Origin: Sphingomonadales bacterium
Lineage (GTDB): Bacteria; Pseudomonadota; Alphaproteobacteria; Sphingomonadales; Sphingomonadaceae
Direction: 5' to 3'
Length of the DNA stretch: 64,000 bases
Assembly: GCA_017309275.1 (NCBI GenBank)
Contig: JAFKLT010000041.1
Location: 26,086-90,085 of the forward strand
Of the stretch, positions 5,313-37,855 are shown piece by piece. The notes under the pieces are model-generated. The model saw only the letters and a program-made list of their open reading frames with translations, was not told the origin of the DNA and made no database searches. The translations under genes and the position numbers were made by a program. Each line of letters begins with the position of its first letter. Positions within the stretch are counted from its first letter, which is position 1.

Positions 5313-5326
5313 CAACAGGAGGCGAA

Positions 5327-6604: not shown

Positions 6605-6764
6605 CTGGTTTCGCCTCTGCATGACACCATGCTTTTTGCATCACCTTGCTGCCGATAACGGTCTTTGACCGGCACTGAACCGGCACCGATCCTGACGCCT
6701 GCGGCACGCCTTTGTGCCGCGTTTTCCACGGGGAATCAGCGCAGGAGAAATCGGAGGCCAGGGT

Positions 6765-10963: not shown

Positions 10964-10975
10964 GGGAGTGCCGAC

Positions 10976-13423: not shown

Positions 13424-14163
13424 AGACCAAGCCCCGTCTGCTGTCTGTCTCGCTTGCCGCCGTGCTGTCGGTGTCGCTGCTAATCGTTCAGCCCGCATCC
13501 GCGCTGACGGTGTTCGACCCGTCCAACTTCGTGCAGAACACGCTGACCGCCGTGCGCACGTTGGAGCAGATCAACAACCAGATCAACCAACTCCAGAACG
13601 AAGCACAGATGCTGATGAACCAGGCGCGCAATCTGGCGAATCTGGACTTCAACATCGTCAATCGCCTGCGCTCGACGCTCGCCACGACCGAACGCCTGAT
13701 CGCCGAGGCACGCGGCCTGGCCTACGACGTGCAGAGCATGGATGCGACCTTCGCCCGGCTGTACCCGGAGCAGTACGCCGCGACTGTCAGCGGCGACCAG
13801 ATGGTGCGCGACGCGCAGGAGCGCTGGAAGAACACCTTGAATGGCCTGCATACCGCGATGCGGATGCAGGCGCAGGTGTCGCAGAACCTGGCAAAAGACG
13901 AAAGCGCACTGTCCGATCTGGTCAGCCAAAGTCAGTCCGCCACCGGCGCGCTGCAAGCCATGCAGGCGACCAACCAGCTTCTGGCCTTGCAGGCCAAGCA
14001 GTCCATCCAGGCGCAGCAACTCCAGATCACGCAGGAACGCGCCGCCGCGCTGGAACTGGCACGCCAAGCAGCGGCTGTCGAGCGTGGCCGTGAAGTGACG
14101 CGCCGCTTCCTGGGTGATGGCACGCCGTACACGCCGCAGCGCGTGGATTTCTACGGCAACTGA
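13420..14163 (+). CDS. trbJ: TrbJ, VirB5-type pilus-associated protein
   Basis: 247 residues with a Sec signal peptide (cleavage after QPASA), then long helices and a coiled coil (INNQINQLQNEAQMLMNQAR), as in TrbJ. It is exported and takes part in pilus assembly and mating-pair contact. The longer open frame from 13348 is a read-back into trbE; ATG 13420 overlaps the trbE stop as ATGA and gives the correct signal peptide. The tail TPYTPQRVDFYGN resembles the tail of the first Eex-like lipoprotein. Confidence 0.92.
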   Translation: MKTKPRLLSVSLAAVLSVSLLIVQPASALTVFDPSNFVQNTLTAVRTLEQINNQINQLQNEAQMLMNQARNLANLDFNIVNRLRSTLATTERLIAEARGLAYDVQSMDATFARLYPEQYAATVSGDQMVRDAQERWKNTLNGLHTAMRMQAQVSQNLAKDESALSDLVSQSQSATGALQAMQATNQLLALQAKQSIQAQQLQITQERAAALELARQAAAVERGREVTRRFLGDGTPYTPQRVDFYGN

Positions 14164-14175
14164 CGGGAGACGGCC

Positions 14176-14478
14176 ATGCGATGCGTTTCCTTGCTGCTTC
14201 CCGTGCTGCTGGTCGCTTGCAGCCAGCAGCCGACCGAAGACCTGGTCGCTGATCCCGTGCGGCTCAAGGCTTTGCGTGTGCAGTGTGCCGCCGACAGGAC
14301 GGCCGCAGGCGAAGACGCCTGCCTGCCCGCGGCCGACGCTTTCCGGCGGCGCTTCGTCGCCGGTGAAACCGGGCCTGACGAGTTCCGCACGTTGGCCGAT
14401 CTGCCGCCGATCCCGCCGAGCTTCGACTCGCCCATCAGTGACCAGGGCGCCATGCCCTTCGAGGGGGACGTGCCATGA
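14176..14478 (+). CDS. trbK: TrbK-like entry-exclusion lipoprotein (second copy)
   Basis: 100 residues with a short lipoprotein signal ending LLVAC (Cys15). The mature part begins DLVADPVRLKALRVQC, closely matching the stretch in the first copy at 6268, but the C-terminus is different and acidic. It lies between trbJ and trbL, exactly where RP4 has trbK, whose product excludes further copies of the plasmid. The stop overlaps trbL by ATGA. The symbol is given by position and family resemblance. Confidence 0.8.
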   Translation: MRCVSLLLPVLLVACSQQPTEDLVADPVRLKALRVQCAADRTAAGEDACLPAADAFRRRFVAGETGPDEFRTLADLPPIPPSFDSPISDQGAMPFEGDVP

Positions 14479-15869
14479 ATGACGTGACCGTGATCGACCG
14501 ATTTCTCGCTACCTTCTCGCGCTACATCGACTCGGGCTTTGGGCTGCTGCAGGGCGAAGTCGCGTTCCTCACCGCCACGCTGATCGTCATCGACATGACG
14601 ATTGCCGGGCTGTACTGGGCGATGAGCCACGCCACCGATCAGGGCGATGATGTGATCGCCAAACTGCTGCGCAAGGTGCTTTACGTCGGTGCCTTCGCCT
14701 ACATCATCAACAACTTCAACTGGCTGGCCAGCATTGTCTTCCGCTCGTTCGCGGGCCTCGGCCTGACGGCCAGCGGCTCGACGATGAGCATGGGCGAATT
14801 CCTGCAACCGGGACGCTTGGCCAAGACCGGCATCGACGCGGCGGCCCCCATTCTTGAGCAGATCAGCGACATGGCGGGCTTCCCCGAAGTGTTCGTGAAC
14901 ATGACGCCCATCGTGGTCATGTTCCTGGCCTGGGCGGTGGTGATCCTGTGTTTCTTCGTGCTGGCGATCCAGCTTTTCATCACGCTGATCGAGTTCAAAC
15001 TGACCACGCTCGCGGGCTTCGTGCTGGTGCCGTTCGCGCTGTGGAACAAGACCAGCTTCCTCGCCGAGAAGGTGCTGGGCAACGTGGTGTCCTCGGGCAT
15101 CAAGGTGCTGGTGCTGGCCGTCATCGTCGGCATCGGCTCGGGCCTGTTTGCCGAGTTCCAGGTGCATCCGGCCGAGCCGTCCATCGACCATGCAGTGGTC
15201 ATCATGCTGGCCTCGCTCACGCTGCTGGCGTTGGGGATCTTCGGGCCGGGCATTGCCACCGGGCTGGTATCCGGTGCACCGCAGCTTGGCGCAGGCGCGA
15301 TGGCCGGTGCTGCGATTGGTGCCGCAGGCGCGGCGGTTGCCGTAGGTGCCGCCGCCACCGGCGTGGGCGGTGCCGTGATGGCCGGAGCGCGCATGGCACC
15401 GGCTGCCGCCAAGCTCGCCGGGGCTGGCGCGCGGGCCGCGACTTCGGCGGCTGGCAGCGCGAAGTCGGCTTTCCAGGCCGGTTCTGCCGCTGCGGGCGGC
15501 GGAGCCAAAGGCGCGATGGCTGGACTGGGCAGTGTCGCCAAGGGCGGCGCACAGGCCGCTGGCCAGCGCGCCGGTGCAGGCATCAAAGCGGCGGCAGCCA
15601 AGGCGGCCGCGCCATTCAAAGCAGGCTGGCAAGGCTCCGGCACCGATGGTGGCTCAGGCGGTGGCGCTGCCAGTTCCGGGCAGGCCACCGCAGGCGATGC
15701 CGCTGGCGACACGGCCAACGCGCAGAAGCAGGAAAAACCGGGCTGGGCCAAGCGCCTGCAACGCCGCCAACGACTCACCCAGGCCACCACCACGGCCGCG
15801 CACACGCTGCGCGGTGGCGACGGCGGCGGTTCGGGCCAAGGCCCGAGTCTGCGAGATTCCGATAGCTGA
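14475..15869 (+). CDS. trbL: TrbL, VirB6-type polytopic channel protein
   Basis: 464 residues. The N-terminal 270 residues contain several membrane helices (for example VVMFLAWAVVILCFFVLAIQ), as expected for the inner-membrane channel component. From about residue 270 the protein is a low-complexity Ala/Gly-rich stretch (GAGAMAGAAIGAAGAAVAVG and onward) ending in a basic tail, the normal TrbL architecture. Coupled to the trbK-like gene upstream; trbF follows after 17 bases. Confidence 0.93.
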   Translation: MNDVTVIDRFLATFSRYIDSGFGLLQGEVAFLTATLIVIDMTIAGLYWAMSHATDQGDDVIAKLLRKVLYVGAFAYIINNFNWLASIVFRSFAGLGLTASGSTMSMGEFLQPGRLAKTGIDAAAPILEQISDMAGFPEVFVNMTPIVVMFLAWAVVILCFFVLAIQLFITLIEFKLTTLAGFVLVPFALWNKTSFLAEKVLGNVVSSGIKVLVLAVIVGIGSGLFAEFQVHPAEPSIDHAVVIMLASLTLLALGIFGPGIATGLVSGAPQLGAGAMAGAAIGAAGAAVAVGAAATGVGGAVMAGARMAPAAAKLAGAGARAATSAAGSAKSAFQAGSAAAGGGAKGAMAGLGSVAKGGAQAAGQRAGAGIKAAAAKAAAPFKAGWQGSGTDGGSGGGAASSGQATAGDAAGDTANAQKQEKPGWAKRLQRRQRLTQATTTAAHTLRGGDGGGSGQGPSLRDSDS

Positions 15870-15886
15870 CTTTCAAGGAGAACGCC

Positions 15887-16591
15887 ATGCGATTCAAACG
15901 ACCGCAGGTGCGCTATGCCGATACGCCGCAGCCTGCCACCCCGTATCAAGCCGCTGCCCAGGTGTGGGACGAGCGCATCGGCTCGGCCCGCGTGCAGGCC
16001 AAGAACTGGCGATTGATGGCCTTCGGCTGCCTGGTGCTCGCGCTGCTGATGGCCGGTGGCCTGGTGTGGCGCTCGGCCCAATCCATCGTCACGCCCTATG
16101 TCATCGAAGTCGATCAGTCCGGCCAGGTGCGCACCGTGGGCGAAGCGGCCACGCCGTACCGGCCCACCGATGCGCAGACGGCACACCATATCGCGCGGTT
16201 CGTGACGCTGGTGCGCTCACTGTCCATCGACCCCATCGTCGTGCGCCAGAACTGGCTCGATGCCTACGACTACACCACCGACCGAGGCGCGGCGGTGCTT
16301 AACGACTATGCGCGGGTGAATGACCCGTTCGCCCGCATCGGCAAAGAGTCGGTAACGGTACAGATCACCAGCGTGGTTCGCGCCAGCGATGCGTCGTTCA
16401 ACGTGCGCTGGATGGAACGCCGCTACGTCAATGGCGCGGCGGCCGGGCTGGAGCGATGGACGGCGGTGGTGTCCATCGTGCAGCAGACCCCGCGCACCGA
16501 AGAACGCCTGCGCCGCAACCCGCTGGGCATCTACGTCAATGGCCTGTCGTGGAGCCGTGAACTGGATTCGTCTGAAGGAGTGAAGCCATGA
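15887..16591 (+). CDS. trbF: TrbF, VirB8-type assembly factor
   Basis: 234 residues: a cytoplasmic N-terminus, one membrane helix (LMAFGCLVLALLMAGGLVW) and a periplasmic NTF2-like domain, as in VirB8/TrbF. These proteins form the periplasmic scaffold of the inner-membrane complex. AAGGAGA lies 7-8 bases before ATG 15887. The stop overlaps the trbG start as ATGA. Confidence 0.92.
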   Translation: MRFKRPQVRYADTPQPATPYQAAAQVWDERIGSARVQAKNWRLMAFGCLVLALLMAGGLVWRSAQSIVTPYVIEVDQSGQVRTVGEAATPYRPTDAQTAHHIARFVTLVRSLSIDPIVVRQNWLDAYDYTTDRGAAVLNDYARVNDPFARIGKESVTVQITSVVRASDASFNVRWMERRYVNGAAAGLERWTAVVSIVQQTPRTEERLRRNPLGIYVNGLSWSRELDSSEGVKP

Positions 16592-17580
16592 ATGTGCCTT
16601 TCCGTTTTTACGCTTTGCCGCTTGTCGTGCTGGCCTTGGCCGGCTGCGCCACGCAGGGCAAACCCCCGCCAGTGATTTCCTTGGATGAGCCGGTACAGGC
16701 GGAGCCTTTGCCGGAAATGCCTGTGCCGATCGAGGTGGTCACTATTGCAGAGCCACTGCCATTGCCTGAGCAGTTGAAGCCAGTGCCGGAGGAAAAGGAT
16801 GCGAAGCCTGCGCCTGAACCGGCTGATGAGACGGTACGTGTCTCGAAAGCCAATGCCGAGGCACGGGTGGCTCCGACGCGCGAAGGCTATGTCAATGCGA
16901 TCCAGGTCTGGCCGTATAGCGATGGCGCGCTGTACCAGGTCTATGCGTCAGTAGGTCGCGTGACGGTGATCGCGCTCCAGCCTGGCGAGGAACTGGTGAC
17001 GGTCGCTGCGGGCGATACCGTGCGCTGGATCGTCGGTGACACCTCCAGCGGCAGCGGGGCCGATCTGCGCGTCAATGTGCTGGTCAAGCCTATCCGTTCC
17101 AGCTTGAAGACCAATCTGGTCATTACCACCAGCCGCAGGACGTACCTGCTGGAACTGACTTCGACCGACAAGGCATGGATGGCGTCGGTGTCCTGGGACT
17201 ACCCGAAAGACCGAATGCTGGCCTTGCGGCGCCAAGCCCAAGCCGCCAACGCTGCCGCGCCGGTCGATGCAGGCTTGTCGCTGGATAACATCCGCTTTCG
17301 CTATGCAATCAGCGGCAGCAATCCATCGTGGAAACCGCTGCGCGCTTTTGATGATGGCGAGAAGGTCTATATCCAGTTCCCGGCAGGCATCGCCCAGGGC
17401 GAGCTGCCGCCGCTGTTCGTCATCGGCGCACAGGGCGACGGGCAACTGGTGAACTATCGCTTCCGCTCGCCGTACTACATCGTGGATCGCCTGTTCGGTG
17501 CAGCAGAACTGCGCCTGGGGGCCGACAAGGGCGATATGGTGCGCATCGAGCGCGCGGATGGCATCGTCGGGAGGAACTGA
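16588..17580 (+). CDS. trbG: TrbG, VirB9-type outer-membrane-complex protein
   Basis: 330 residues with a signal peptide ending LALAGC, so possibly a lipoprotein. A proline/glutamate-rich linker follows, then a VirB9 beta domain (YANAIQVWPYSDG-like start and YRFRSPYYIVDRLF near the end). With TrbI it would build the outer-membrane core complex. Only 2 bases separate it from trbI. Confidence 0.92.
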   Translation: MNVPFRFYALPLVVLALAGCATQGKPPPVISLDEPVQAEPLPEMPVPIEVVTIAEPLPLPEQLKPVPEEKDAKPAPEPADETVRVSKANAEARVAPTREGYVNAIQVWPYSDGALYQVYASVGRVTVIALQPGEELVTVAAGDTVRWIVGDTSSGSGADLRVNVLVKPIRSSLKTNLVITTSRRTYLLELTSTDKAWMASVSWDYPKDRMLALRRQAQAANAAAPVDAGLSLDNIRFRYAISGSNPSWKPLRAFDDGEKVYIQFPAGIAQGELPPLFVIGAQGDGQLVNYRFRSPYYIVDRLFGAAELRLGADKGDMVRIERADGIVGRN

Positions 17581-17582
17581 GC

Positions 17583-18860
17583 ATGAGCCAGGACGACACT
17601 CCCGACCTTGCCACGCCGCAGGCGGACAAGATGGCACCCGAGGCGGTGGCGCTGCGCGCCCAACCGCGCCCGGTCACGCGTCTGAACCGACGCACGCTGG
17701 CCATCCTCGCTGGCGGCCTGTCGGTTGGCGTGATGGGCGCGCTGATCTGGTCACTGCAACCGCAGCAACGCGGCGCGGGCGAATCCACCGAACTGTACAA
17801 CGTGGATCGTGTATCGCGCTCGGAAGGCCTCGACCAACTTCCTGCCGACTATTCCAAGTTGCCAGCGCTGCCGCCCGACGTGCCGGAGCTGGGGCCACCG
17901 CTACCGGGTGATCTGGGGCCGGCCATCGTCAATTCGCAGCAGCCGGTCGCCGCCACCTATGCCGCGCCCGGCTACGACCCCAACGATGCGCTGCACAAGG
18001 AAGCAGAAGCGGCGGCAGCTTCAACGGTGTTCTTCCGCACCGGCTCCCCGCAGGCCGCGCCCGTGGCGCAGTCGCAAGTCGCTGCCGCGCCGGGCTTCGC
18101 CGCCAATGCCGCTTTCGATCCACTGGCCGCTGGCCCGGCCTCGACGGCGGCCCAGCCTGCTGATCCGACTGCCGTGCAGAACCGGCAAGACCAGAAAGAG
18201 GCGTTCCTGACAGGCGGTTCTACGGAAACCCGTAACTCCGGCAACCTGCAAATGCCCACCTCGCCGTATCAGGTGATGGCCGGAACGGTCATTGCCGGGG
18301 CACTGGTCACGGGCATCAAGTCCGACTTGCCGGGCGACGTGATCGCCACGGTGACGGAACCGATCTACGACACGGCCACTGGCAAGTTCCTGCTGATCCC
18401 GCAGGGATCTCGCATACTGGGCAAGTACAACAGCCAGGTCAGCTACGGCCAGAGCCGCGTGCAGGTGGTGTGGAATCGCATCATCCTGCCCGACACGTCA
18501 TCACTCACGCTCGACAACCTGATCGGCACCGACCCGGCAGGCTATGCCGGTCTGGAGGACAACGTGGACTGGCATTGGGATCGGATCTTTGCAGGTGCCG
18601 TGCTGACCACGCTGCTGGGTGTCGGTGCCGAACTGGCTGCACCTGAGAACCGCCAGGACGGCGATCGCGTCATCATCGCCGGGCGCGACAGCCTGCAGGA
18701 CACCGTGAACCAGGTCGGCCAGGAAGTGACCCGGCGCAATCTCAACATCCAACCCACGCTGACCAGCCGCCCCGGCTTGCCGGTGCGCATCATCGTCAAC
18801 CGCGATCTGGTGCTACGGCCTTATCAGCCGCTGTTCTTCAACAAGGGGACTTCTCGATGA
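17583..18860 (+). CDS. trbI: TrbI, VirB10-type core-complex protein
   Basis: 425 residues. One N-terminal membrane helix (LAILAGGLSVGVMGALIWSL), a long Pro/Ala-rich periplasmic linker, and a C-terminal VirB10 domain from about residue 225 (SPYQVMAGTVIAGALVTGIK, then LLIPQGSRILGKYNSQVSYG). VirB10 proteins span both membranes and gate the channel. It is the last transport gene of the cluster and overlaps the DUF2274 gene by ATGA. Confidence 0.94.
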   Translation: MSQDDTPDLATPQADKMAPEAVALRAQPRPVTRLNRRTLAILAGGLSVGVMGALIWSLQPQQRGAGESTELYNVDRVSRSEGLDQLPADYSKLPALPPDVPELGPPLPGDLGPAIVNSQQPVAATYAAPGYDPNDALHKEAEAAAASTVFFRTGSPQAAPVAQSQVAAAPGFAANAAFDPLAAGPASTAAQPADPTAVQNRQDQKEAFLTGGSTETRNSGNLQMPTSPYQVMAGTVIAGALVTGIKSDLPGDVIATVTEPIYDTATGKFLLIPQGSRILGKYNSQVSYGQSRVQVVWNRIILPDTSSLTLDNLIGTDPAGYAGLEDNVDWHWDRIFAGAVLTTLLGVGAELAAPENRQDGDRVIIAGRDSLQDTVNQVGQEVTRRNLNIQPTLTSRPGLPVRIIVNRDLVLRPYQPLFFNKGTSR

Positions 18861-26897: not shown

Positions 26898-27728
26898 GGC
26901 TCAGGACCCATTGATTTGCGTGGGTGATTATGATTCAGGCTGACGCAAGGAGCCTGAATGATGAGCGATCTATACTGGCTGACGGATGAGCAGATGGCTC
27001 GGCTTCAGCCTTTCTTCCCCAAGAGCCATGGCCGCCCTCGCGTGGATGATCGGCGGGTGCTGAGCGGTATCATCTTCGTCAATCGCAACGGGCTCAGGTG
27101 GCGGGACGCACCGCGGGAGTATGGCCCGGCCAAGACGCTTTACAACCGCTGGAAGCGGTGGAGTGACAAAGGTGTCTTCATTGCGATGATGGATGGCCTC
27201 TCGGCCAAGGGCACCGAGCGCAAAACGATCATGATCGACGCCACCTATCTCAAAGCGCACCGCACGGCATCGAGCCTGGGGGTAAAAAGGGGGGTCCGGG
27301 CCGCCTGATCGGACGCACGAAAGGTGGCATGAACACGAAGCTGCATGCCGTCACCGATGCCGATGGCCGTCCGATCAGCTTCTTCATGACGGCGGGTCAG
27401 GTGAGCGATTACACCGGAGCGGCAGCCTTGCTGGACGGCTTGCCCAAAGCACAATGGCTGCTGGGTGATCGGGGCTATGATGCCGACTGGTTCCGCGATG
27501 CCTTGCAGGAAAATGGCATTACCCCCTGCATCCCGGGACGGAAATCCCGCACGAAACCGGTGAAATACGACAAGCGCAGATACAGAAGCCGGAACCGGAT
27601 CGAGATCATGTTCGGCCGCCTCAAGGACTGGAGGCGTGTCGCAACACGCTACGACAGGTGCTCAAAAACCTTCCTCTCGGCCGTCGCTCTCGCCGCTACC
27701 GTCCTGTTCTGGCTATGAGTCCTGAGCC
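26898..27728 (+). mobile_element. IS5-family insertion sequence (IS427-like group), 831 bp
   Basis: Terminal inverted repeats are visible: left GGCTCAGGACCCAT from 26898 and right, read inward, GGCTCAGGACTCAT ending at 27728. The dinucleotide TA flanks both ends (26896-26897 and 27729-27730), consistent with a TA target duplication. Inside lies a transposase in two overlapping frames. Size and organisation fit the IS427 group of the IS5 family. The ends and both frames look intact, so the copy may be active. Confidence 0.88.
26958..27718 (+). CDS. IS5-family transposase, two frames joined by a presumed -1 frameshift
   Basis: The first frame runs 26958-27308 and contains the N-terminal helix-turn-helix and first catalytic Asp (MIDATYLKAHR). 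The second continues in the -1 frame through the same region and ends at 27718, carrying the second Asp (LGDRGYDADW) and the Y-R-E signature RSRNRIEIMFGRLKDWRR. The frames meet at AAAAAGGGGGG (27284-27294), a plausible slippage site of the kind used by this group. If no frameshifting occurs, only a non-catalytic N-terminal product is made. Confidence 0.85.
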
Positions 27729-28721: not shown

Positions 28722-29729
28722 ATGTCCCACGACCTCATGTTCGTGGCACCCGAGCAGCGCGACGAGGTGCGTCGCAGGATCGCAGCCGTGGAACAATTCA
28801 TTGCCGCGCCCGGGCGCAGGGCCGCCGAGGCGGCCGCTGCGAGACTAGGCCTCAGCACGGCCCAGTTCTACAACCTCGTCCGCGCTTGGCGGGCGAAGCA
28901 AAGACCGGAAATAATGATGGGTCGCCATTCGCCGCGCGAGATGCAATCCCGGATCGACCCATTAGTGCTCGATCTCATTGACGAGGTGATCAGCGCGGAT
29001 CGCCGAGCTGCCGCCAGCGTCCTTGTCGAGCGAGTCCGTTCGTTGGCGGCGATCCGCGGTATTGAACTTCCGGACCCGAGCACTGTGGCGCGCTCCGTTC
29101 GACGCAAACGGCCGATGCTACTGACCGAAGAGCATAGGCGGGATGTCGATCTCATCATCGACCATACCGTCGTTGATCTGCCTGTCGACTTCGGTGATGG
29201 TCAAGCCCGACGCCCTCTCGTGACTGTCGTCATCGACGTCGCCTCCGAGGCTCCCGTCGCGTTGTCTATCTCCCGCTCGGTGCCGAGCCAGGCGGCCACC
29301 GCCGAAGCAATATTCGATGCGCTCCGCGGCGGCATCCGACACGCCAACGGTAGGGCAGCGAAGAGACGCATGAGCATCGTGGCGATGTCGGAGAAAGAGG
29401 GTGCCAATGTGGTCGCCACCCTGCGGCAGGCGGGTATCGATGCGGGCCTCATAATGACGGGCGCCCACGGTGGCGGGCTGGTCGTGGAATCGCTACTCGG
29501 ACCGGAACCTGTCGGACTGCGGCTTAAGCAACGGCTCGTATGGCATCACGGCGAAAAGAGGTTGGCTGCAGTGCGTTCAGGTGCCCCGCCGCTGACAATC
29601 GCCGAAGCCGAGACGCTCATCAGGGGACGCCTACTTCACGGTCGTCCCACCACGGCGTTCAGCTCTTTAAGCAACCGCGACCAGGCATATCTGGCCAGGA
29701 GCTTGGCGAAGATCGCTCAAGCCGACTGA
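28722..29729 (+). CDS. Transposase-like protein A: HTH plus RNase H-like core lacking a complete DDE triad
   Basis: 335 residues. An N-terminal helix-turn-helix (AAAARLGLSTAQFYNLVRAWR) is followed by a linker (DPSTVARSVRRKRP) and an rve-like core: LIIDHTVVDLP (Asp147), then LVTVVIDVASEAPVALSISR, as in Mu/TnsB/IS-type integrase cores. The second catalytic aspartate (normally in a DNG-type motif) is missing at the expected place, where the sequence reads LIMTGAHGGGLVVESLLG, and no KGxVER-type glutamate is seen. The tail (LTIAEAETLIRGRL) resembles the helix after the catalytic Glu. It is probably a DNA-binding protein without strand-transfer activity. GGGGAAAAAG precedes the ATG. Gene B converges on it with a 13-base overlap. 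Confidence 0.65.
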   Translation: MSHDLMFVAPEQRDEVRRRIAAVEQFIAAPGRRAAEAAAARLGLSTAQFYNLVRAWRAKQRPEIMMGRHSPREMQSRIDPLVLDLIDEVISADRRAAASVLVERVRSLAAIRGIELPDPSTVARSVRRKRPMLLTEEHRRDVDLIIDHTVVDLPVDFGDGQARRPLVTVVIDVASEAPVALSISRSVPSQAATAEAIFDALRGGIRHANGRAAKRRMSIVAMSEKEGANVVATLRQAGIDAGLIMTGAHGGGLVVESLLGPEPVGLRLKQRLVWHHGEKRLAAVRSGAPPLTIAEAETLIRGRLLHGRPTTAFSSLSNRDQAYLARSLAKIAQAD

Positions 29730-30871
29730 AGCGCGACCAGCGAGGCACGGATCACGGCGGCTAGACGTCCGTCGGTTACGCCACCACCAATGATGTTGGC
29801 TCGGGTCAGAGCGACAATGCGATCGACGTTGTGACGTTCAACCTCCCGCATCCAGATTCCACGTGCTTCTTCTAGCGCCACAATGGGGGCAACTCGACTC
29901 TTGAGGTATTCGTCGATGTCCATATCTGCCAGCAAGGTGCGCCGGGAATTCAACGGTATCCTGCCAATCCGCGGACCAGTCACCTGCTGGACTTGCTGAC
30001 CAAAGGAAAACCCGCCAGCCCGGCCCATCACCAGTTCGCTGACATGCGGCTCCAGCGTCTGGATCAACGACTCAGCGTGTATGTCCGGTGGCAACATCCA
30101 GCCCAAACTCGGCATCGTATCGGGCTGGGGCGGCAGATCGGCCCTGTTAAGCTGAAGAAACGAAAGGCCGGCGGATAAGGCTTCGCGCTGGAGCGCACGG
30201 CCGTTATCTTTTCTGCCGAGCGCCGAGCCTAGAACGAGGCCACTAGCTGTTTCCATCAAGATGGCCGCTACCGCGAGGGCACGCTCTGTTCCGTCGAGAA
30301 CAATCTGGACAGCGGTAAGGTCCAAGACCATTTCGCCACCAAATGCAGCGCGGACAAATTTGGGATCCCCAGTAAGCCGCCGACGTTCATCGCCGACTAG
30401 CCGCTGAAGGCGCTGGAGGACGGTGAGTGCGTGGTTGGCACCCGCGTCGGTCCGGACGAGATCCGGGTTCGCCTCCATGATACGCCTCGCCACATCAACG
30501 TTACGCGAGAGCGGGTTCGAGCGTAACAGGGTCTCGGCTTCTTTCCGAAGCGGACTCTCATCGCTGGCATCTACGCGCCTGCCGCTACGAGTGTCGTGCG
30601 GGACCAGACCGGCGAGCGAGTGGGTGCGCCACGCAACGCGCAAGTTGTAGAAGGCTGCGCGCTTAAGGCGAGCCAGATCGGCGAGCGGCCCGAGTGGCTC
30701 GCCCCGTTCTGCGCGCCAGACGGCTTCGAGCCGATCCAGAAGATTCTTGCGATTCGAAGCAGGAACGGCGTCCAGCACCACCCGATCCCGTTCAGAGATA
30801 CCATCGGGCCACACCAAGGCGATCAGTTGCTGCTGTCGCCGCTCGATATCATCCTGAGCCTCTAAATCCAT
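29717..30871 (-). CDS. Transposase-like protein B: distant relative of A, likewise degenerate
   Basis: 384 residues. The helix-turn-helix region (LADLARLKRAAFYNLRVAWR, residues 63-82) shares the FYNLxxAWR string with protein A. An rve-like strand pair follows: MVLDLTAVQIVL (Asp184) and ILMETASGLVLGSAL. The second and third catalytic residues of a DDE enzyme cannot be found, and the C-terminal helix VALEEARGIWMREVERHN again matches the post-Glu region of transposases. It diverges from the tns operon, sharing the repeat-bearing control region at 30872-31001, and converges with A. A regulator or target-immunity factor is one reading; a relic kept by chance is another. Confidence 0.62.
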   Translation of the reverse strand: MDLEAQDDIERRQQQLIALVWPDGISERDRVVLDAVPASNRKNLLDRLEAVWRAERGEPLGPLADLARLKRAAFYNLRVAWRTHSLAGLVPHDTRSGRRVDASDESPLRKEAETLLRSNPLSRNVDVARRIMEANPDLVRTDAGANHALTVLQRLQRLVGDERRRLTGDPKFVRAAFGGEMVLDLTAVQIVLDGTERALAVAAILMETASGLVLGSALGRKDNGRALQREALSAGLSFLQLNRADLPPQPDTMPSLGWMLPPDIHAESLIQTLEPHVSELVMGRAGGFSFGQQVQQVTGPRIGRIPLNSRRTLLADMDIDEYLKSRVAPIVALEEARGIWMREVERHNVDRIVALTRANIIGGGVTDGRLAAVIRASLVALQSA

Positions 30872-30899: not shown

Positions 30900-30964
30900 A
30901 TGTCTAGTGGTATATGCCTGCTTGACGAAAGATCCCGCACCACCTACTTATCCGATGTCTAGTG
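30900..30964 (+). promoter_or_regulatory. Promoter of the Tn7-like operon bracketed by two 10-bp direct repeats
   Basis: A sigma70-type promoter is visible: TTGACG (30922-30927), 17 bases, TACTTA (30945-30950). The sequence ATGTCTAGTG occurs twice, at 30900-30909 just upstream of the -35 and at 30955-30964 around the expected start of transcription. Both are preceded by similar bases (ACTGAT / ACTTAT). The 55-base spacing is close to five helical turns, so a repressor could bind both sites on one DNA face. The divergent gene B starts at 30871, so the upstream copy also lies in its promoter. Confidence 0.6.
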
Positions 30965-31001
30965 CAGTTCGCCTAGAAATGATTCGGATTGGAGGTGGCG
31001 G

Positions 31002-31163
31002 ATGCCAAAAGATCACAGCGAAGCAACAGGTGCAGACGAGACCTTCGAGCGGCCGCCAATACTGCCGCTGCCTACCGAGGCCGCCGCGCGCCTCTCGACG
31101 TGGCGTCGGCGCAAGTCTCAACGGCAGCGTCGGCCGGTGCCTATCTCGGGATTGTCCCGATGA
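31002..31163 (+). CDS. Short basic protein at the head of the Tn7-like operon
   Basis: 53 codons, MPKDHSEATGADETFERPPI at the start and a very basic C-terminal half (WRRRKSQRQRR). GGAGGTGGCGG gives a strong ribosome site directly before ATG 31002, the best of the operon. The stop overlaps the next ORF as ATGA. No family recognised. The basic tail suggests nucleic-acid contact or a leader peptide whose translation opens the operon. Confidence 0.5.
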   Translation: MPKDHSEATGADETFERPPILPLPTEAAARLSTWRRRKSQRQRRPVPISGLSR

Positions 31164-31366
31164 CGATCTTTGGCGGACAGGCGAGCCCCACCGCTTGGCG
31201 CATCGTCGTCGTAACATTGCGCGGCGACGGATTGCGGTCCGGCACCGTCGACGCGGTGAATCCGTCGACAGGGAATAAAGCGTCACTCCTGTTCGAGGGG
31301 CACGACGACCTGTCGGTTGACGGTCGCGAATATTGCCGCGCGGTGATGCAGGGCCAAAACCGATGA
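31160..31366 (+). CDS. Small protein coupled to tnsA
   Basis: 68 residues starting MTIFGGQASPTAWRIVVVTL, predicted as mostly beta strands, ending YCRAVMQGQNR. It overlaps the preceding ORF and the following tnsA frame by ATGA at both ends, the same coupling style seen across well-translated operons, which argues that it is real. No family recognised and no catalytic motif seen. Confidence 0.5.
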   Translation: MTIFGGQASPTAWRIVVVTLRGDGLRSGTVDAVNPSTGNKASLLFEGHDDLSVDGREYCRAVMQGQNR

Positions 31367-32289
31367 CCCGCGTCAAAGCTCTGAGCAGGACGATCGAATG
31401 CGGTCTGATGGGCGAAGATCCGTCGTCGCCCGCCTGCACTGCCCAAGCAGTGAACTCGGGTGATCCCGTTCCCAAGTGGATTCTGCCCCATCCACACAGT
31501 CTCATTCCCCGAAGGCCACCGCGGTGGGTGAGCCGCGCCCCCCGTCGTGACGCGCCGCACGCGCTCCGTTCGAGAAGTGAAGGCTGGCGTAGTCCTCGCC
31601 TACGCACTGATCCTGCCGGTGGGCCCATGCGCATCAACATGACCTATAGAAATTCGTGCACGACTTCGGCCGACTTCTGCCCGACGATCGGCCACGACGT
31701 TTTCACGGAAGGCGCTTTCGAGGGGATCTATCGGGCGATCCTAACCACAGACGAAGATACCTGCGAGTTTCAGTTTCAGGTCGCGACCATCACCTGGACC
31801 ACCAAGGACGGGCAGGACCGCCACTACACCTTTGACGGCGGGCGGATCACTGTGGATGGCGTCGAGCGGTGGTTCGAGATCAAGGCTCACGCCAGCTACT
31901 TCAAACTGCCCGACGTGGCCGACGTGCTGGACCAAGCGGAACGCGCACTTGCCGCACACGACATCGCTTTGGACCGAATAGATGGATCGGCGTTGCTCGA
32001 TCACGTGCGGCTCCGCGCGGTAAACGGCGTTCTGCGCCATCGGAATGTTCCCTACAGCCGCCGCGATGTGGCTGCTGCGCACGATGCGATTCACCGCGCT
32101 GGTGGCGTCGCTCCGCACGGCGCTGTCGCCGCTGCCATCGGGAGGGGACAGCGCAACGCCGAGGCGATGATGTCGGCAATGCTGATCCGCCGCGAGATTG
32201 GCTTTCCGGTCAACGGCCCCGTGACGGTCGACACGCCAGTCACTCTCTTGCGCCGACCCAACCGACGCCTTTCCCGCTTCGGCACCTAG
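31363..32289 (+). CDS. TnsA-like endonuclease of a Tn7-like element
   Basis: The restriction-endonuclease-fold nuclease that cuts the non-transferred strands so the element leaves by cut-and-paste. Catalytic residues read from the ATG at 31627: Glu32 in EGAFEGIYRAILTTDED, Asp70 in HYTFDGG and the Glu84-Ile-Lys86 triplet in WFEIKAH, which fit the E...D...ExK pattern of TnsA. The helix after it (IALDRIDGSALLDHVRLRAV) matches the end of the domain. ATG 31363 overlaps the upstream ORF as ATGA and gives 308 residues; ATG 31627 gives 220 residues and leaves out an 88-residue, Arg/Pro-rich extension of doubtful coding quality. Confidence 0.72.
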   Translation: MTRVKALSRTIECGLMGEDPSSPACTAQAVNSGDPVPKWILPHPHSLIPRRPPRWVSRAPRRDAPHALRSRSEGWRSPRLRTDPAGGPMRINMTYRNSCTTSADFCPTIGHDVFTEGAFEGIYRAILTTDEDTCEFQFQVATITWTTKDGQDRHYTFDGGRITVDGVERWFEIKAHASYFKLPDVADVLDQAERALAAHDIALDRIDGSALLDHVRLRAVNGVLRHRNVPYSRRDVAAAHDAIHRAGGVAPHGAVAAAIGRGQRNAEAMMSAMLIRREIGFPVNGPVTVDTPVTLLRRPNRRLSRFGT

Positions 32290-32291: not shown

Positions 32292-34526
32292 GTGTCTCTC
32301 CCGTGCACCATCGCCATCGGCGACATCATCCACCTCGGCGAGCGCCGGATCCGTTTCGAGGCGGATTTGGGAGACGGGGATTTGCATTTCACCGACGTGC
32401 GCACCGGCGCGCGCGTCCGCGTCGAGGATCCTGACACTGGCGATCCGTCCAGCACGACCATCGAGTGGCTATTGAGATCTTTGAAAGCAGGGCAGATTTA
32501 TTATCAACGCGCTAGCGAGCCCCGGCCCGATGATCGTCGCGGAGACCTGACGCAAGTGGACGAGGACGCCGCCGACACAATCGATCCACTTACGTCTTGG
32601 CGCAGAACATGGGTGCGAGAGGCACGCGCGAATAAGGTGAAGTGCGAGGCGGCCTGCAAGGCTTTCATCGCTCATAGTTACGAGCGAATCTCTAGCGAAT
32701 ACCGCGAGCGGAAGGGACGGACATACAAACGTCCGGGAGCCAGCACGCTCAAACGGTGGATCATCAGAACCCCACAAGATTTCGCGCCGGGCGCCCACGT
32801 ATCAAAGGCTGGTCGCCAGAAGGGGCAGTCTCAACTGACAAACGCAGAAGATGCTCTTGTCCACGAAGCCGCGCTCTACTTCTGGGCGGACAAAGGCGCG
32901 TCGATCGTCGACGCCGAGGCTGTCATGGCGCGAGGATGGAACTCATTGAAACTTAAGGGCGATATTGACCTTGGAGAGAAGAGACCTTCCTATGAGGCGG
33001 TCCGCCTCCGCGTCTGGAGCATTGCCACCTTCGCGACCGTCTTTGAAAAGTTCGGACGAGAGCGGGCCGAAAAGATGTTTGGAGCGGTCGGCGAACCGAT
33101 CGAAGTTCATCGCGCATTCCAGCGGATATTCGTCGACGGAACCGAACTCGAGCAGGTGTGCCTCTTCGGTGAAGACTGGCAGCTGCCTGGAGGCAAGATG
33201 AAGTGCGTAGGCGCGATGGACGCCTTCTCGACCTTTGTCTTCGATCCGACAATTTTTGCCGGTCCCTACCGCGAGGAGATGTCGATCGAGGCGCTGTGCC
33301 GAGTAATGACGCCACCGGATCATCTCACGGAGGAACAACTGGCGTTTCATCCATACGTTGGATGGACGTTCGGAATTCCCGAAGCATGGACGCCTGACAA
33401 TGATCGGACGCTGATAGGACCCGCCTATATTCCCGCGCTGCTGGACTTGGGTTCGCGGTTAGAGCTGCCCGCAACTTACCATTCGGACGCAAAAGCACCT
33501 CTGGAGTGGTGGTTCGGGTGGCTAAAGTCACGCCTCAAGGGATTGCCCGGCACCGTTCTTTCGCCACGCCACAGCCGCGATATCAAGCAGGATCCGGTCA
33601 ATGGCGCGGAAATGGTATCGAGCCAGCTTGTCTACGCCGTCCGGGCCTTAACCTGGGAATACAACACCACTCCCGTGGAGCGGCTCAACTGGCGTTCGCC
33701 GTTCGACGTGCTGATCGCCAGTATGATCGCCAACGGTTCTGCAACCCTAAGCAACCCCCAGCGTATCCGGGCCGAAATGGAGAAAACGGTCAACGACCGC
33801 GTCCTAGCCGACGATGGACTTGAATACGACGGAATCCAGTATCGCGGGCCCGAGGTGGAGGACATCCTTCGTCGGAACTACCACGCCGTTGCATCTTCTC
33901 GTGACGGTCATGAACCCGTCCGACTAAAGGTGTCGATCCGAACCAATGAGGCAAACATCGATTACATCCGTGTTTGGCACGACGACGCGAGGCAGTTCGT
34001 GAAACTGTGGTCCACGCAACCGACCTACACAAATCTGCTTAGCCGATGGGAGCACGACGAATATCGCCGGATGGCCAAGGCGCGTAAGGAAAGATTCGAT
34101 TCGGAGGGACAGCGAGTGCGGTCTCGGACTCGCAGTCTTGAGCAGATCGACGAACAAGCGCCGAAGATGGCGTTCCGTCGGCGTTCAAAGATGTTTACAC
34201 TTTCGCAGTGCGAGGAGGTCCGCCAGCGCTCGGGCGCGCGCGCGCGCCGCCCTGGATTTCTAACATTTCCAGAGCATTTTGTCATTGTCGAGACGTCCAC
34301 CGTTATGCGCGGCGATCCCGGAAAGCCGCCGCCCGGTCCGAAGAAGGAAACTGGCGGAGGCCCGCCCGGCAAGCAGTTCGCAGCCCCCAAGCGTGACGGC
34401 CGTCGCGGCATCTCGCCGGAGCGGCGGCACCCAGAAGACGACATGCAAGACGCCGCAAGCAACAGCATTGACTGGGATGCGCTGAGCCACGTGGCACCCG
34501 ACGACGAATATGACGAAGAGGACTGA
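32292..34526 (+). CDS. TnsB-like DDE transposase (Mu/TniA superfamily)
   Basis: 744 residues from GTG 32292, two bases after the tnsA stop. The catalytic core is complete: Asp282 in IFVDGTELE, Asp369 in WTPDNDRTL and Glu405 in APLEWWFGWLKSRL, with exactly 35 residues between the last two (D,D-35-E). A Mu-type C-terminal domain follows (YNTTPVERLNWRSPFDVL). The last 100 residues are basic and disordered with an acidic tip, the place where TnsB-type proteins contact TnsC. It would bind the element ends and perform strand transfer. The open frame extends to 31869 but that part overlaps tnsA. Confidence 0.85.
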   Translation: MSLPCTIAIGDIIHLGERRIRFEADLGDGDLHFTDVRTGARVRVEDPDTGDPSSTTIEWLLRSLKAGQIYYQRASEPRPDDRRGDLTQVDEDAADTIDPLTSWRRTWVREARANKVKCEAACKAFIAHSYERISSEYRERKGRTYKRPGASTLKRWIIRTPQDFAPGAHVSKAGRQKGQSQLTNAEDALVHEAALYFWADKGASIVDAEAVMARGWNSLKLKGDIDLGEKRPSYEAVRLRVWSIATFATVFEKFGRERAEKMFGAVGEPIEVHRAFQRIFVDGTELEQVCLFGEDWQLPGGKMKCVGAMDAFSTFVFDPTIFAGPYREEMSIEALCRVMTPPDHLTEEQLAFHPYVGWTFGIPEAWTPDNDRTLIGPAYIPALLDLGSRLELPATYHSDAKAPLEWWFGWLKSRLKGLPGTVLSPRHSRDIKQDPVNGAEMVSSQLVYAVRALTWEYNTTPVERLNWRSPFDVLIASMIANGSATLSNPQRIRAEMEKTVNDRVLADDGLEYDGIQYRGPEVEDILRRNYHAVASSRDGHEPVRLKVSIRTNEANIDYIRVWHDDARQFVKLWSTQPTYTNLLSRWEHDEYRRMAKARKERFDSEGQRVRSRTRSLEQIDEQAPKMAFRRRSKMFTLSQCEEVRQRSGARARRPGFLTFPEHFVIVETSTVMRGDPGKPPPGPKKETGGGPPGKQFAAPKRDGRRGISPERRHPEDDMQDAASNSIDWDALSHVAPDDEYDEED

Positions 34527-34528: not shown

Positions 34529-35515
34529 ATGGCCAAAGATCCACTCGGAAAGCGGCCCCGCCCGCTCACTGGCAGACGCTTCGCCGACTATGCCGATCAG
34601 GAAACACAGTTACGAGAGGCGAAGATGCGAAAAGTTGTGAAGAATATATGGGTCGAGCACCCGCCGCAGGCAAACGTGATCGGCCGTATCCTCGCATACC
34701 GCTTCGCCACCCTTGAGGGTGCGGAAATTGGCGGGCAAGACGGACTATGCTTCAGCCAGGACAGTCAGATCGGCAAAACGGCCACTGTCACGCGCGTGAA
34801 GCACATTCTCGCCGAGGAACGCGCCGCGAGGGGTGAGTTGCCGAATCCTTATCAGATCATCGTCGTGGGCCTCGATCAGAAGACGTCACTCAAGAGTGTT
34901 CTGCAGGACGTCCTGATACAGATGGAGGACCCAGATTGGGATTATGGCACCGAGAAGCAGCTCAGGCAACGGATCCGTAAGTTCGTCAAACGTCTCGGCG
35001 TTGAACTGATAATTATCGACGAATGCCAGCACTTACAGAAGGGCGGGAATGACGTTGCCGACGTGACGGACGCCTTTAAACGCTTCCTCGACATGGGCAT
35101 CGCACCGTTGGTGTTAGTGGGAAACCTCGATGCTAAGCGAGTGTTCGATCGCAATCCGCAATTCCGCGCCCGTCTTGGGCTCCCGCTGACACTGCCCGCG
35201 CTCGATGTTAAGAAGCGCACCGCGGACGCCGTGCACTTCCGCAACTTCGTCATGGGTTTCGATGCGGCACTCGCGCAATTGGAGGCCTTCGGTAAAACCT
35301 CAGATCTTTCCGCCCCCGCCATGCTCGACGCCTTGCAGGAGGCATCGGGCGGATATTTTGGCCGCGTGGCACGGATAATCCAAAACGCGGCGATTCATGC
35401 AGCGGCCAGGGGAGCGCAGTTCATCGAGGCCTACGACCTCAGCTGTGTTGTTCGCGACTACGCCATCCCCGCAGGTTGGGTCGGCGACGATCCTTTTTCG
35501 ACGCCTAATGTCTGA
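34529..35515 (+). CDS. TnsC/TniB-like AAA+ regulator with an altered Walker A
   Basis: 328 residues. AAA+ features: a P-loop reading QDSQIGKTATV (Gln77 where the first Gly normally stands; Lys83, Thr84 intact), Walker B LIIIDECQHL (Asp164, Glu165), sensor-like LVLVGNLDAKRVF and an arginine-rich FRARLGL. TnsC-type ATPases polymerise on DNA, receive the target signal from TniQ/TnsD and activate TnsA-TnsB. It starts 2 bases after tnsB and overlaps tniQ by 8 bases, so all four are coupled. The missing first glycine may slow but need not abolish nucleotide binding. Confidence 0.85.
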   Translation: MAKDPLGKRPRPLTGRRFADYADQETQLREAKMRKVVKNIWVEHPPQANVIGRILAYRFATLEGAEIGGQDGLCFSQDSQIGKTATVTRVKHILAEERAARGELPNPYQIIVVGLDQKTSLKSVLQDVLIQMEDPDWDYGTEKQLRQRIRKFVKRLGVELIIIDECQHLQKGGNDVADVTDAFKRFLDMGIAPLVLVGNLDAKRVFDRNPQFRARLGLPLTLPALDVKKRTADAVHFRNFVMGFDAALAQLEAFGKTSDLSAPAMLDALQEASGGYFGRVARIIQNAAIHAAARGAQFIEAYDLSCVVRDYAIPAGWVGDDPFSTPNV

Positions 35516-37652
35516 TCATCTCGTTAGGAAACCCGACAGCAGCCTGGTGTCTTCCACGACGGACGTAGCGTTTGATTGTGGATCGGGCTTTGACACCAAG
35601 AAGCGTGGGCCGAGGGGCGTGCGCAACCGCAATGCTTTGCCACCTGGGCGGCGAATCCTTCGCCGCAACGTAAAGCGTCCGCACCTACACGCGTCGGGAT
35701 GGAGCGTCCCCGAACGCAAGATGAAGATCGGCCAACCGCTTCGCTTTCCGACGATTCCGGAAGAATACGAAAGCCTAATCGGGCTCGTGGCGCGGGCTAC
35801 TGCAGACCATGTGCTGCTCGACCTGAACAGGGTGCTTCGTCGGGCAGGCATAAGCATGGACCGGCCCGGATACCTTACTCGACTCGATTCAGCCACGTTG
35901 GAACGCCTCGCTCCCATCATCGGCTGCCCGGTCGAAGAGGTATTGTCTCGAACGATGTGGACCATGTTGCCTCATGCGAAAGCCAGGCGCGCTAGGCTGC
36001 GGGCCAACCACCTCAGCGTGTGGGACATAGAGACCGAGCACCGCAGGATTTCTCCGCTCGCGATTCTCGCTGGCTCCCGCCACCGCGAGTCATGGCTTCT
36101 CCGGATACTGCCATATTGCTCTGTCAGTTTCGAACTCCTTCGATCGGACTGCTCAGAATGCAGTGCGCCTTTGCGATGGAAGAAGTCCGTTGGGATAGAT
36201 GTCTGCGAGACATGCGAACAGGTGGTCGGACCCACCGACGCCGCGTTGCTAGACGAGGAAATGAGGTCAGATTATGCGCTGTTCGCACGCCTCATTTCTG
36301 GTCGAGTCGAAGTGCGCAAGAAGGCTTTTAGCGAACTGAGCCCTGCCGTCCAAGACTTGGATGTTGAAACCCTGATCCGAATGGTCATAGGCATAGGGGC
36401 CTGCTTCCACTTAAAGGACCGCTTCGTAAATCGAAAGTCGATCCACAGACTTCCGCCCGCCCAGCAGGCTGCCATTATATCGACCGGCACCGAAATTCTG
36501 AGGGAATGGCCCGGCGCGCTGCAGCTCCGGTCACAAGAGGAGGCCACCCGGCTAATTGCGGGTGGCAGCGATTACCGAAAGCTGCGGGCCAGATTGCAAA
36601 AGCTGGGCCATCGGTGGTTCGTAAGCCAAAAACAAGCAGACCTCATACGTGACGCGCTCCCCGACATATTTTGCAACGTGCAACGCAGCTTCAAGCCTCT
36701 TTCGGACACGCTTCTGCGCCGTGAAGCGGGCAAACTCCTTGGCTTGGCCGTCAGGCATGTCGATTTGGTTGATGCCGGGCTTCTTGCGGCGGAGGAACTG
36801 GGAGGAGGCGCAAATCGAAGGTTTCGTTTCGATCGTTCGGTCGTGGAGGCGCTACGCAGGCGTATAGACGGATCAATTTCAATGGCCCTGTTTGCGCGGC
36901 AGACCTATCTTCCGACCTACGCGATCGAGAATCTTTGTGACCATGGGATACTCGAGCGCGAAAGTGACCCAGCACTGTTTCACCTTCGCCATGGCTCCAG
37001 CATCACCCGGACGTCCATCGAGTCGCTTCGCGCGGCGATATTCGAATTGGAACGCGGCACAGCCCCGAGCGATGCCGTCCCGCTCGGGACCGCCACGCGG
37101 CGGATTGGAGGCCGCTTAAAGCCATGGGCCGATATCGTAGTCGCATTGCGAGACCGGTCGCTTACGTGCTGGATAGCTCCCAACGCGACTTCGGAGACAC
37201 CCTGGCTACGCAGCATCCTGATTGCGCCTCCCCAATTCGCTCAGTTCGACAATATCGCGATGACCGAGCCACCCGGACAAAGCCCACGATCGCTCGCCGA
37301 CTGTTCGTTGTCCGATGCAAAGGAAATTCTCAACCTTCGAGGCACACCATCAGTTGATCTTCAGGACGTCTTCGCAAAAGAAATCGCGGCATGCGATCAA
37401 CGGGGCCCGCGCAAGGCAGTTCCGATGGCGAAGGTCCTCGAGAAGGCTGAACAAGAAATCGGCATCGGCGAGATCTGTGCACGTGCTAATTGGAACGCGC
37501 GTCAGGCAAAATGGGCGCTGGCACTCTTCGCGAATGATCGCACGGCATGCGGGTGGAACCGCGCCGCAATCGAGAAATCGGGGGTTTTGGAGACGCAAAT
37601 TAACTGGAGCGTCAGAGCGCATCGCCGCGATCCAAGGACGTTGGGGTCGTGA
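35508..37652 (+). CDS. TniQ/TnsD-like target-selection protein
   Basis: 714 residues, long for TniQ and close to TnsD in size. The TniQ opening PEEYESLIGLVARAT lies near residue 85, followed by a zinc-ribbon region with CSEC (Cys215, Cys218) and CETC (Cys233, Cys236). Several helix-turn-helix-like stretches follow to the C-terminus (for example LLRREAGKLLGLAVRHVDLV and EICARANWNARQAKWALALF), which would read the target DNA. ATG 35508 overlaps tnsC by 8 bases; the next in-frame ATG at 35721 would remove 71 basic residues. The position of the element suggests a specific site, not identified here. Confidence 0.78.
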   Translation: MSDHLVRKPDSSLVSSTTDVAFDCGSGFDTKKRGPRGVRNRNALPPGRRILRRNVKRPHLHASGWSVPERKMKIGQPLRFPTIPEEYESLIGLVARATADHVLLDLNRVLRRAGISMDRPGYLTRLDSATLERLAPIIGCPVEEVLSRTMWTMLPHAKARRARLRANHLSVWDIETEHRRISPLAILAGSRHRESWLLRILPYCSVSFELLRSDCSECSAPLRWKKSVGIDVCETCEQVVGPTDAALLDEEMRSDYALFARLISGRVEVRKKAFSELSPAVQDLDVETLIRMVIGIGACFHLKDRFVNRKSIHRLPPAQQAAIISTGTEILREWPGALQLRSQEEATRLIAGGSDYRKLRARLQKLGHRWFVSQKQADLIRDALPDIFCNVQRSFKPLSDTLLRREAGKLLGLAVRHVDLVDAGLLAAEELGGGANRRFRFDRSVVEALRRRIDGSISMALFARQTYLPTYAIENLCDHGILERESDPALFHLRHGSSITRTSIESLRAAIFELERGTAPSDAVPLGTATRRIGGRLKPWADIVVALRDRSLTCWIAPNATSETPWLRSILIAPPQFAQFDNIAMTEPPGQSPRSLADCSLSDAKEILNLRGTPSVDLQDVFAKEIAACDQRGPRKAVPMAKVLEKAEQEIGIGEICARANWNARQAKWALALFANDRTACGWNRAAIEKSGVLETQINWSVRAHRRDPRTLGS

Positions 37653-37653
37653 T

Positions 37654-37713
37654 AGCTTGTAACCGGTCGTATTAGGTCAAATTAGCTTGTAGCCTGTCAG
37701 CTTGTTCTACCCA
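37654..37713 (+). repeat. Direct repeats after tniQ, candidate TnsB-binding end
   Basis: AGCTTGT occurs three times in 52 bases, at 37654, 37684 and 37699. The first two extend to AGCTTGTARCCNGTC, a 15-base repeat with two differences, spaced 30 bases; the third is shorter. Starting 2 bases after the tniQ stop, they have the layout of transposase-binding sites at the end of a Tn7-like element. A matching inverted set was not found on the left, and the exact terminus (expected ...ACA) could not be fixed. Confidence 0.5.
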
Positions 37714-37855
37714 AGGAACGTGGGTCGTTTCAAGATTGGGCGAAGGGGCCGGATGAACATGACGGGTCGCCCACTTTGGCTTCGCTCGGGGAAAGACCTA
37801 TAAGGCCGTGCGCGTCGTCACAGACGCGGCGGCCGGAATGCTGTGAGGGGACCAC

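Follow-up and report, generated by a model that had tools for sequence, protein, structure and literature searches.

Why should a transposon carry, beside its transposition genes, two proteins that resemble transposases but have lost the catalytic triad? The question is raised by a 64,000-nucleotide stretch of contig JAFKLT010000041.1 (the window) from a bacterium of the Sphingomonadaceae, in which two such genes, A and B, lie next to the tnsABC-tniQ genes of a Tn7-like transposon. This element is called W, related loci are given L numbers and genomes G numbers. It is argued below that A and B are probably regulators of the tns genes.

Two inactive relatives of TnsB

Gene A (28722-29729, plus strand) and gene B (29717-30871, minus strand) are open reading frames (ORFs) in convergent order, and the ORF listing of the window shows a 13 bp overlap of their 3′ ends. 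B is divergent from tnsA, and tnsABC-tniQ adjoins the pair. The initial annotation, made from the sequence of the window, had described these frames, coordinates and neighbours, and all of them were borne out. The shared string FYNLxxAWR that it reported was also found, as FYNLVRAWR in A and FYNLRVAWR in B, and the aspartate-bearing strings IDHTVVDLP and VLDLTAVQI are present in the sequence. The two proteins, of 335 and 384 amino acids (aa), are much shorter than TnsB (~740 aa).

The proposal that A and B are distant paralogues was supported by profile-profile comparison with relatives taken from whole genomes (probability 99.8, E 2e-30, 302 columns). The same kind of search, suggested earlier as a check for a relation to transposases, matched both proteins to TnsB (E 3e-10 for A, E 7e-7 for B). 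The TnsB chain of ShCAST (7svw) was matched by the A profile at E 4e-10 and the B profile at E 5e-4, the match covering the helix-turn-helix (HTH) and the first strands of the catalytic domain. General libraries gave less: Pfam returned weak helix-turn-helix matches only, NCBIfam matched A only and far below cut-off (the better match being to IS481 transposases), and PHROGs placed A in a transposase family (E 1e-10). By sequence profiles, then, both proteins have a homologous HTH and RNase H-like (TnsB-type) region. Judged from length and alignment, neither has the C-terminal β-barrel and TnsC-binding tail, the global profile alignment stopping near TnsB column 570 of 843 for A and near 610 for B.

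The catalytic residues were then counted column by column. In TnsB, D, D and E are each kept in 31/31 sequences. The first Asp is present in 17/36 A and 33/34 B proteins. The second is found in 1/36 A proteins in the D2 column paired by hhalign and in 9/36 in the best nearby column, a count that depends on the alignment; for B the figures are 1/34 in the D2-paired column and 20/34 in a column three residues on. Glu is kept in 3/36 A proteins, and in B in 7/34 in the Glu-paired column and 2-3/34 in neighbouring ones. No A protein (0/36) has a complete DDE triad without column shifts, and B has no conserved Glu column at all. A full triad recognised under another alignment had been named as a finding that would overturn the idea. 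When shifts of a few columns were allowed, some D1, D and E could be found in 1/36 A (L112) and 12/34 B, and the latter is the level of chance, random stretches of the same width holding a Glu as often (0.49 vs 0.53). In the window itself, A keeps D147 and E256, the latter aligned with the catalytic Glu, and lacks D2; B keeps D184, has D263 three residues past the D2 column and has no Glu. The initial annotation had both proteins lacking the second Asp and the Glu: neither indeed has a triad, but A retains its Glu.

A tree of 34 A and 34 B proteins separated them into two groups (support 85/79) whose internal order is similar, a pattern that a single old duplication would leave. As far as sequence profiles and residue counts can tell, A and B are dead relatives of TnsB and homologous to each other. 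Descent from the element's own TnsB was considered and is less likely, the profiles scoring higher on other Tn7-like TnsB proteins: median scores were 9 bits on 32 TnsB of their own clade vs 59 bits on 13 others for A, and 0.5 vs 32 bits for B, a comparison that long branches may distort. The higher scores on foreign TnsB make capture from another Tn7-like element possible.

Occurrence of the pair

The linkage of A and B to tns genes, which the initial annotation had noted in the window, was found in other genomes as well. Of the 37 loci looked at, the pair is convergent and beside tns in 31 and co-directional in three, two of the latter with extra copies of A. In one locus of the convergent set, L129, only tnsA and tnsB are visible before the contig ends. 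The others are L017, with a single dead relative, L135, which has TnsB and an A-like match, and L136, which is another part of the L113 region.

As these 37 loci had mostly been found via A, a reverse survey was made from tniQ. In 396 Sphingomonadales genomes it gave 32 loci with a close tniQ (E<1e-100); A and B are both present in 26, in one case on either side of a contig break. The remaining six comprise one with a rearranged A-like frame, one without adjoining tnsA-tnsB, two that run off the contig and two complete elements without the pair. In the fetched stretches of the more distant elements L154-L159 and L163-L165 neither A nor B was seen.

Searches further afield gave little. Close relatives in GTDB contigs numbered none for A and one locus for B, and plasmids yielded two records for A and one for B; weak matches to the A profile were followed up in part. 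With the B profile, strong matches in 385 genomes of the class were confined to the family, with four weak ones elsewhere; one weak class match, L140, is a long ORF with DDE-like motifs. In 398 genomes of the phylum (E<=1e-8) five matches fell outside the family, all of them long ORFs that by eye are full DDE TnsB proteins, each with TnsC beside it. Phages, searched with B and not with A, gave no match. A and B thus belong to a Sphingomonadaceae family of Tn7-like transposons.

Some loci depart from the usual arrangement. L115 (11223-16738) and L113 carry B and two or three copies of A in one direction, an expanded array of dead transposases. An A-like frame in L152 (1633-2826) has its RNase H-like part before the HTH, either by circular permutation or as joined remnants. 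L017 (8701-18408) combines its one dead relative with two tniQ genes and, by eye, a MerR-like gene.

Exchange of A-B independently of tns

Co-inheritance of the genes was analysed in 21 elements, a set without L110, L111, L117, L119 and L132-L134 (split or partial genes), without L127, L129 and L131 (not fetched to both ends) and without L113, L115 and L123. Distances between A proteins correlated with those between B proteins (Spearman 0.75, reached by 0/500 permutations), and those of tnsA, tnsB, tnsC and tniQ correlated among themselves (0.61-0.80). Correlations of A or B with any tns gene were between -0.03 and 0.08 and not significant.

The trees agree with this division. A and B have 9/18 splits in common, and TnsB, TnsC and TniQ 12-13/18 among themselves, but the A-B and tns blocks have 0/18. 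In approximately unbiased (AU) tests the A-B data rejected the tns tree (log-likelihood difference 1671) and the tns data rejected the A-B tree (9575). TniQ data accepted the trees of TnsB and TnsC; the joined data for tns rejected those of TnsC (41 log units) and TniQ (162). The absence of common splits holds for the tested set only, since L015 and L110, which are not a pair within the 21, have both modules in common and L113, L115 and L123 combine a common tns module (TnsB 74-98%) with related A-B.

The boundary of the exchanged segment can be seen in individual pairs. L116 and L117 are 75% alike in A and 83% in B, with TnsB only 18% alike; their similarity continues for ~180 bp beyond the start of B and ends before tnsA. 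Conversely, the tns-similar pairs L117/L119, L121/L137 and L120/L128 are alike only from about tnsA, L120/L128 having two short matches further left besides. Right-hand flanking genes within 6 kb were common only to L015/L110 and one unrelated pair (L128/W). Elements therefore exchange A-B as a cassette of its own, apart from tnsABC-tniQ, and in the closest pair, L116/L117, the cassette includes the DNA just upstream of B.

Repeats between B and tnsA

The gap between B and tnsA was compared in 28 elements, as were the flanks and upstream stretches (27 for the stretch upstream of A in the control count), the starts of A and B in the relatives being guessed by script. A direct-repeat search of the window found two putative operator copies of the TGTCTAGTG type on the plus strand, at 30901-30920 and, 55 bp from the first, at 30956-30975; in the window alone the pair is borderline. 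Between the copies, on the same strand, lie a putative -35 hexamer of a tns promoter (TTGACG, 30922-30927) and a candidate -10 hexamer (TACTTA, 30945-30950). The order is thus TGTCTAGTGGTATATGCCTG at 30901, TTGACG at 30922, TACTTA at 30945 and TGTCTAGTGCAGTTCGCCTA at 30956.

This plan recurs. The window's pair is supported by L010, which has the same type, with shorter copies in L014 and L111 and a variant in L112. In L015 the plan is kept in other letters (ATGTTGC...TTGACG-17-TACTTA...ATGTTGC), with a spacing of 57 bp. Direct repeats at <=5/100 shuffles were present in 13/28 gaps, against 1/28 control stretches inside B, 3/28 in tnsB, 1/27 upstream of A and 2/28 in tniQ. TTGAC was found on the tns-reading strand of 14/28 gaps, vs 2/27-28 for each control and 3/28 for the other strand, and in seven elements (W, L010, L014, L015, L110, L112 and L119) it stands between both repeat copies.

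Which module the repeats go with is shown by the close pairs. L116, L117 and L119 have TTCTA-type copies 44 bp apart, and the gaps of L116 and L117, so unlike in TnsB, have a 78-bp block in common (73/78 identity). GTCTA(G)-type copies are common to W, L010, L014 and L111, with TnsB 15-34% alike in the pairs listed. Among close pairs, therefore, the repeat sequence follows A-B type and not tns type.

Seven elements (W, L010, L015, L110, L116, L117 and L119) were scanned, with up to three mismatches, between a point 2.5 kb left of A and one 0.8 kb right of tniQ; no further copy of the motif was found. In L015 and L110, where both ends of the transposon are within the scanned stretch, it occurs in the gap only. 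Perfect inverted repeats upstream of B were seen in 4/23 elements vs 0.7 expected, with no motif in common, and a search for operators shared between the stretches upstream of A and of B exceeded its shuffles only in L121 (13 vs a null maximum of 11) and L132 (12 vs 11).

A predicted regulator of transposition

It seems fairly likely, from these sequence patterns, that A and B are transposase-derived DNA-binding regulators of tns, probably repressors, which travel with their predicted operators as an exchangeable cassette. A and B would bind the paired repeats through their transposase-derived HTH, probably as an A-B heterodimer, because the sites are non-palindromic direct repeats. The bound pair would repress the predicted promoter reading into the tns operon and so keep transposition low in an established element; transposition would be released on entry to a new cell or on loss of A-B. 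Different A-B types would then be different control or immunity groups. Of the roles guessed in the initial annotation, those of repressor and immunity factor are thus favoured, acting at operators in the B-tnsA gap, while those of end-binding protein and accessory target protein are not.

The immunity regions of temperate phages lie beside a divergent operon, and their regulator and operator are exchanged together. A-B resembles them as an exchanged regulator-operator unit by a divergent operon, its control of tns being predicted only. That Tn7-like transposons have immunity groups in the phage style, in which a dead-transposase heterodimer and its paired operators decide when an element jumps and which other elements it tolerates, whatever transposase or target site is joined to them, is a more tentative proposal, which would hold in perhaps a minority of the outcomes that we foresee. 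Such control in non-CRISPR Tn7-like elements is, to our knowledge, little studied. If the regulator reading is true, a pair of dedicated regulators has arisen from a transposase within a transposon family and is passed around as a module, in the manner of phage immunity regions; the predicted operator, available with several A-B types, makes the question of control directly testable.

Regulators of other kinds are known from related elements. Tn7-like CRISPR-associated transposons (CASTs) carry co-opted repressors, according to parts of PMC9938897 and PMC11406308. Like these regulators, CvkR (MerR) and RtaC/RtbC (Xre), A and B are element-encoded DNA-binding proteins for which control of transposition genes is predicted, but they are a TnsB-derived pair and the CAST regulators are of unrelated families. 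No published description of a dead TnsB pair was found in the open PMC literature, the only literature searched.

Several observations weigh against the regulator reading. Activation of tns is as compatible with the sequences as repression. The window's repeat pair, taken alone, was equalled in 5-14/100 shuffles, and in 15/28 gaps no repeat pair reached 5/100. Over 378 pairs of elements, identity of the gap correlates weakly with that of B (0.16; 1/1000 permutations) and nearly as highly with that of TnsB (0.10; 26/1000). The stretch upstream of A correlates with A to the same degree (0.16; 1/1000); part of the gap trend may therefore be due to linkage alone. No motif is common to the stretches upstream of A and of B. 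Significant direct repeats by tnsA also occur in 2/10 elements without A and B (L154 and L157), where they are possibly TnsB sites or those of another regulator. Close as they are, the trees of A and B are each rejected with the data of the other protein (30 and 50 log units; AU 0.0009 and 0.0003). The pair is missing from two complete elements (L150 and L153), L111, L133 and L134 have a partial or interrupted A frame, and B has a dN/dS (ratio of non-synonymous to synonymous substitution rates) of 0.88 between W and the G063 element, on 7 changes.

Alternative roles

Four other roles were weighed, as target selector, structural subunit, anti-element factor or decaying remnant, and all fit the data less well than a regulator of tns.

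The best of them is a target selector analogous to TnsF, that is, a dead recombinase binding the attachment site and presenting it to TniQ. According to PMC10293859, TnsF of Tn6022 is an inactivated tyrosine recombinase in such a role and target selectors are modular in Tn7 elements. Like TnsF, A-B derives from a recombinase that lost catalysis and was retained by a Tn7-like element as a component predicted to bind DNA; it is also modular. Nor is the site fixed by a close tns module, since L117 and L119 (TnsB 74%, TniQ 54%) are at different sites, with no tRNA found in the L117 stretch. But TnsF is a target selector of another fold, whereas A-B sits at the predicted tns promoter and did not track the target site in the cases compared. 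W and L010 have the same A-B type (A 64%, B 69%), yet W is inserted at ligA and ligA is intact in the L010 genome, a metagenome bin. L111, L119 and L122 are unlike in A-B (A 19-28%, B 17-27%) and somewhat closer in tns (TnsB 30-44%), and all lie by tRNA-Thr(CGT), at 265 bp, 263 bp and 1.8 kb; L121, of another tns group, lies by the same tRNA-Thr(CGT) in opposite orientation. Furthermore, the long TniQ (~640 aa) co-varies with tnsABC. The target-site cases are few, and as far as seen in them the insertion site does not follow A-B type. A target selector is unlikely, and the same few cases (W/L010 and the tRNA-Thr group) speak against the accessory target protein of the initial annotation.

A and B might also be non-catalytic structural subunits of a mixed transpososome, taking the place of two idle TnsB protomers as in the strand-transfer complex of ShCAST. 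Their homology to TnsB would suit this, and two of the four TnsB protomers in that complex are catalytically idle according to part of PMC9527255. But A-B does not co-vary with TnsB (the 0/18 common splits), and elements without A-B exist. At the right end the three best matches join elements similar in tns (L117/L119, L121/L137 and L015/L110), though the correlation of right-end with TnsB identity over all pairs is not significant (0.06; 135/1000; 378 pairs). This role is quite improbable, and the end-binding function guessed earlier is disfavoured likewise, the A-B phylogeny being unrelated to that of TnsB and the motif of L015 and L110 being confined to the gap.

Also improbable is a role of A-B as swappable defence cargo acting on the ends or promoters of other mobile elements. 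The frequent exchange and diversity of A-B would fit, as would the defence-like cargo of at least one of these transposons. However, A-B is present in a cargo-free six-gene element, PADLOC returned no match for A or B, and the repeats at the tns promoter would be left unexplained.

That A and B are decaying transposase remnants without function is barely credible: catalytic residues are lost, divergence is fast and A is damaged in L111, L133 and L134 and rearranged in L152, but the frames are open in most pairs at ~22-24% mean identity, the A and B trees are similar and dN/dS is low in two pairs (A 0.21 and B 0.18 for L015/L110, A 0.12 and B 0.07 for L116/L117, both with saturated dS).

The element in the window and its surroundings

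To the right of the repeats the window has, all on the plus strand, a small ORF of 53 aa (31002-31163) behind GGAGG with a relative in L010 (49% over 35 aa, E 4e-7), tnsA (31363-32289, start uncertain, the profile match beginning at 31540), tnsB (32292-34526, DDE intact in FVDGTEL / TPDNDRT / APLEWWF), tnsC (34529-35515, TniB/AAA+, Pfam TniB 2.5e-13) and tniQ (35721-37652, start inferred). Pfam did not match the TniQ of the window and matched 10/27 of those scanned. The window and the complete relatives thus have tnsA, DDE tnsB, AAA+ tnsC and tniQ in one operon-like row, with tnsB or tniQ split into two frames in L110, L117, L119 and L132.

Right-end repeats on the plus strand (37653-37694) are TAGCTTGTAACC at 37653 and TAGCTTGTAGCC at 37683, and GCTACAAG is present at the left end too. 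The transposon ends at 37746, followed by the 5-bp duplication GGCCG (37747-37751). The left end was located on a different contig from this genome (C93:5246), where it falls at the 3′ end of ligA. L015 is an exact 8842-bp element whose ORFs (>=90 aa) are A, B, tnsA, tnsB, tnsC and tniQ only; its ends have TGATAGA, repeated ATAAGTTGTCC-type sites and a GGCGC duplication, and the corresponding empty sites, with GGCGC in the 3′ end of rnhA, are present in at least six of the 19 relatives compared. End repeats, a 5-bp target duplication and a fixed site are therefore found in both L015 and the window. The family resembles Tn7-like transposons in its core genes and their order, DDE TnsB, TniB-type TnsC, 5-bp duplications and insertion at gene ends or by tRNAs, and differs in carrying the A-B pair.

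The G063 element occupies the same ligA position as that of the window with a different duplication, GCGGG. Between the two, identity is 99.3% over the stretch running from A to the right end, against 84.8% in ligA and 82.5% in the right flank, and the simplest reading of these figures and of the differing duplications is two recent separate insertions. An IS5-type insertion in the window (26899-27723; two neighbouring ORFs, family by eye) is missing from the otherwise 96-97% identical G063 copy and is thus recent. Further left in the window, an RND efflux pump and an outer-membrane factor are encoded at 485-5309, and conjugation genes (VirD4/TraG, TrbL, TrbI and others) lie at 6714-18857. These genes (485-18857) are apparently transposon cargo, if contig 41 is correctly assembled.

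Other cargo was seen in L012 (10804-28506), an element on a plasmid of S. parapaucimobilis, with VWA, PP2C and C4-topoisomerase genes to the left of A and, right of tniQ, genes for TIR, S8 peptidase and caspase-like proteins, all of them possibly defence cargo. L134 has the same genes left of A. Both encode a small protein between B and tnsA (L012 17211-17732, L134 6602-7231; 44% alike), by eye like a stand-alone N-terminal domain of TnsB, and profile matches revealed other N-terminal TnsB fragments in L115, L123 and L136. Lastly, a palindromic repeat of 75-80 bp (CCCCGGACTTGATCCGGGG type) occurs in many copies per genome in G000, G063 and G008; in G008 it separates the end of ligA from the desaturase gene, and in G063 it adjoins the transposon's right end.

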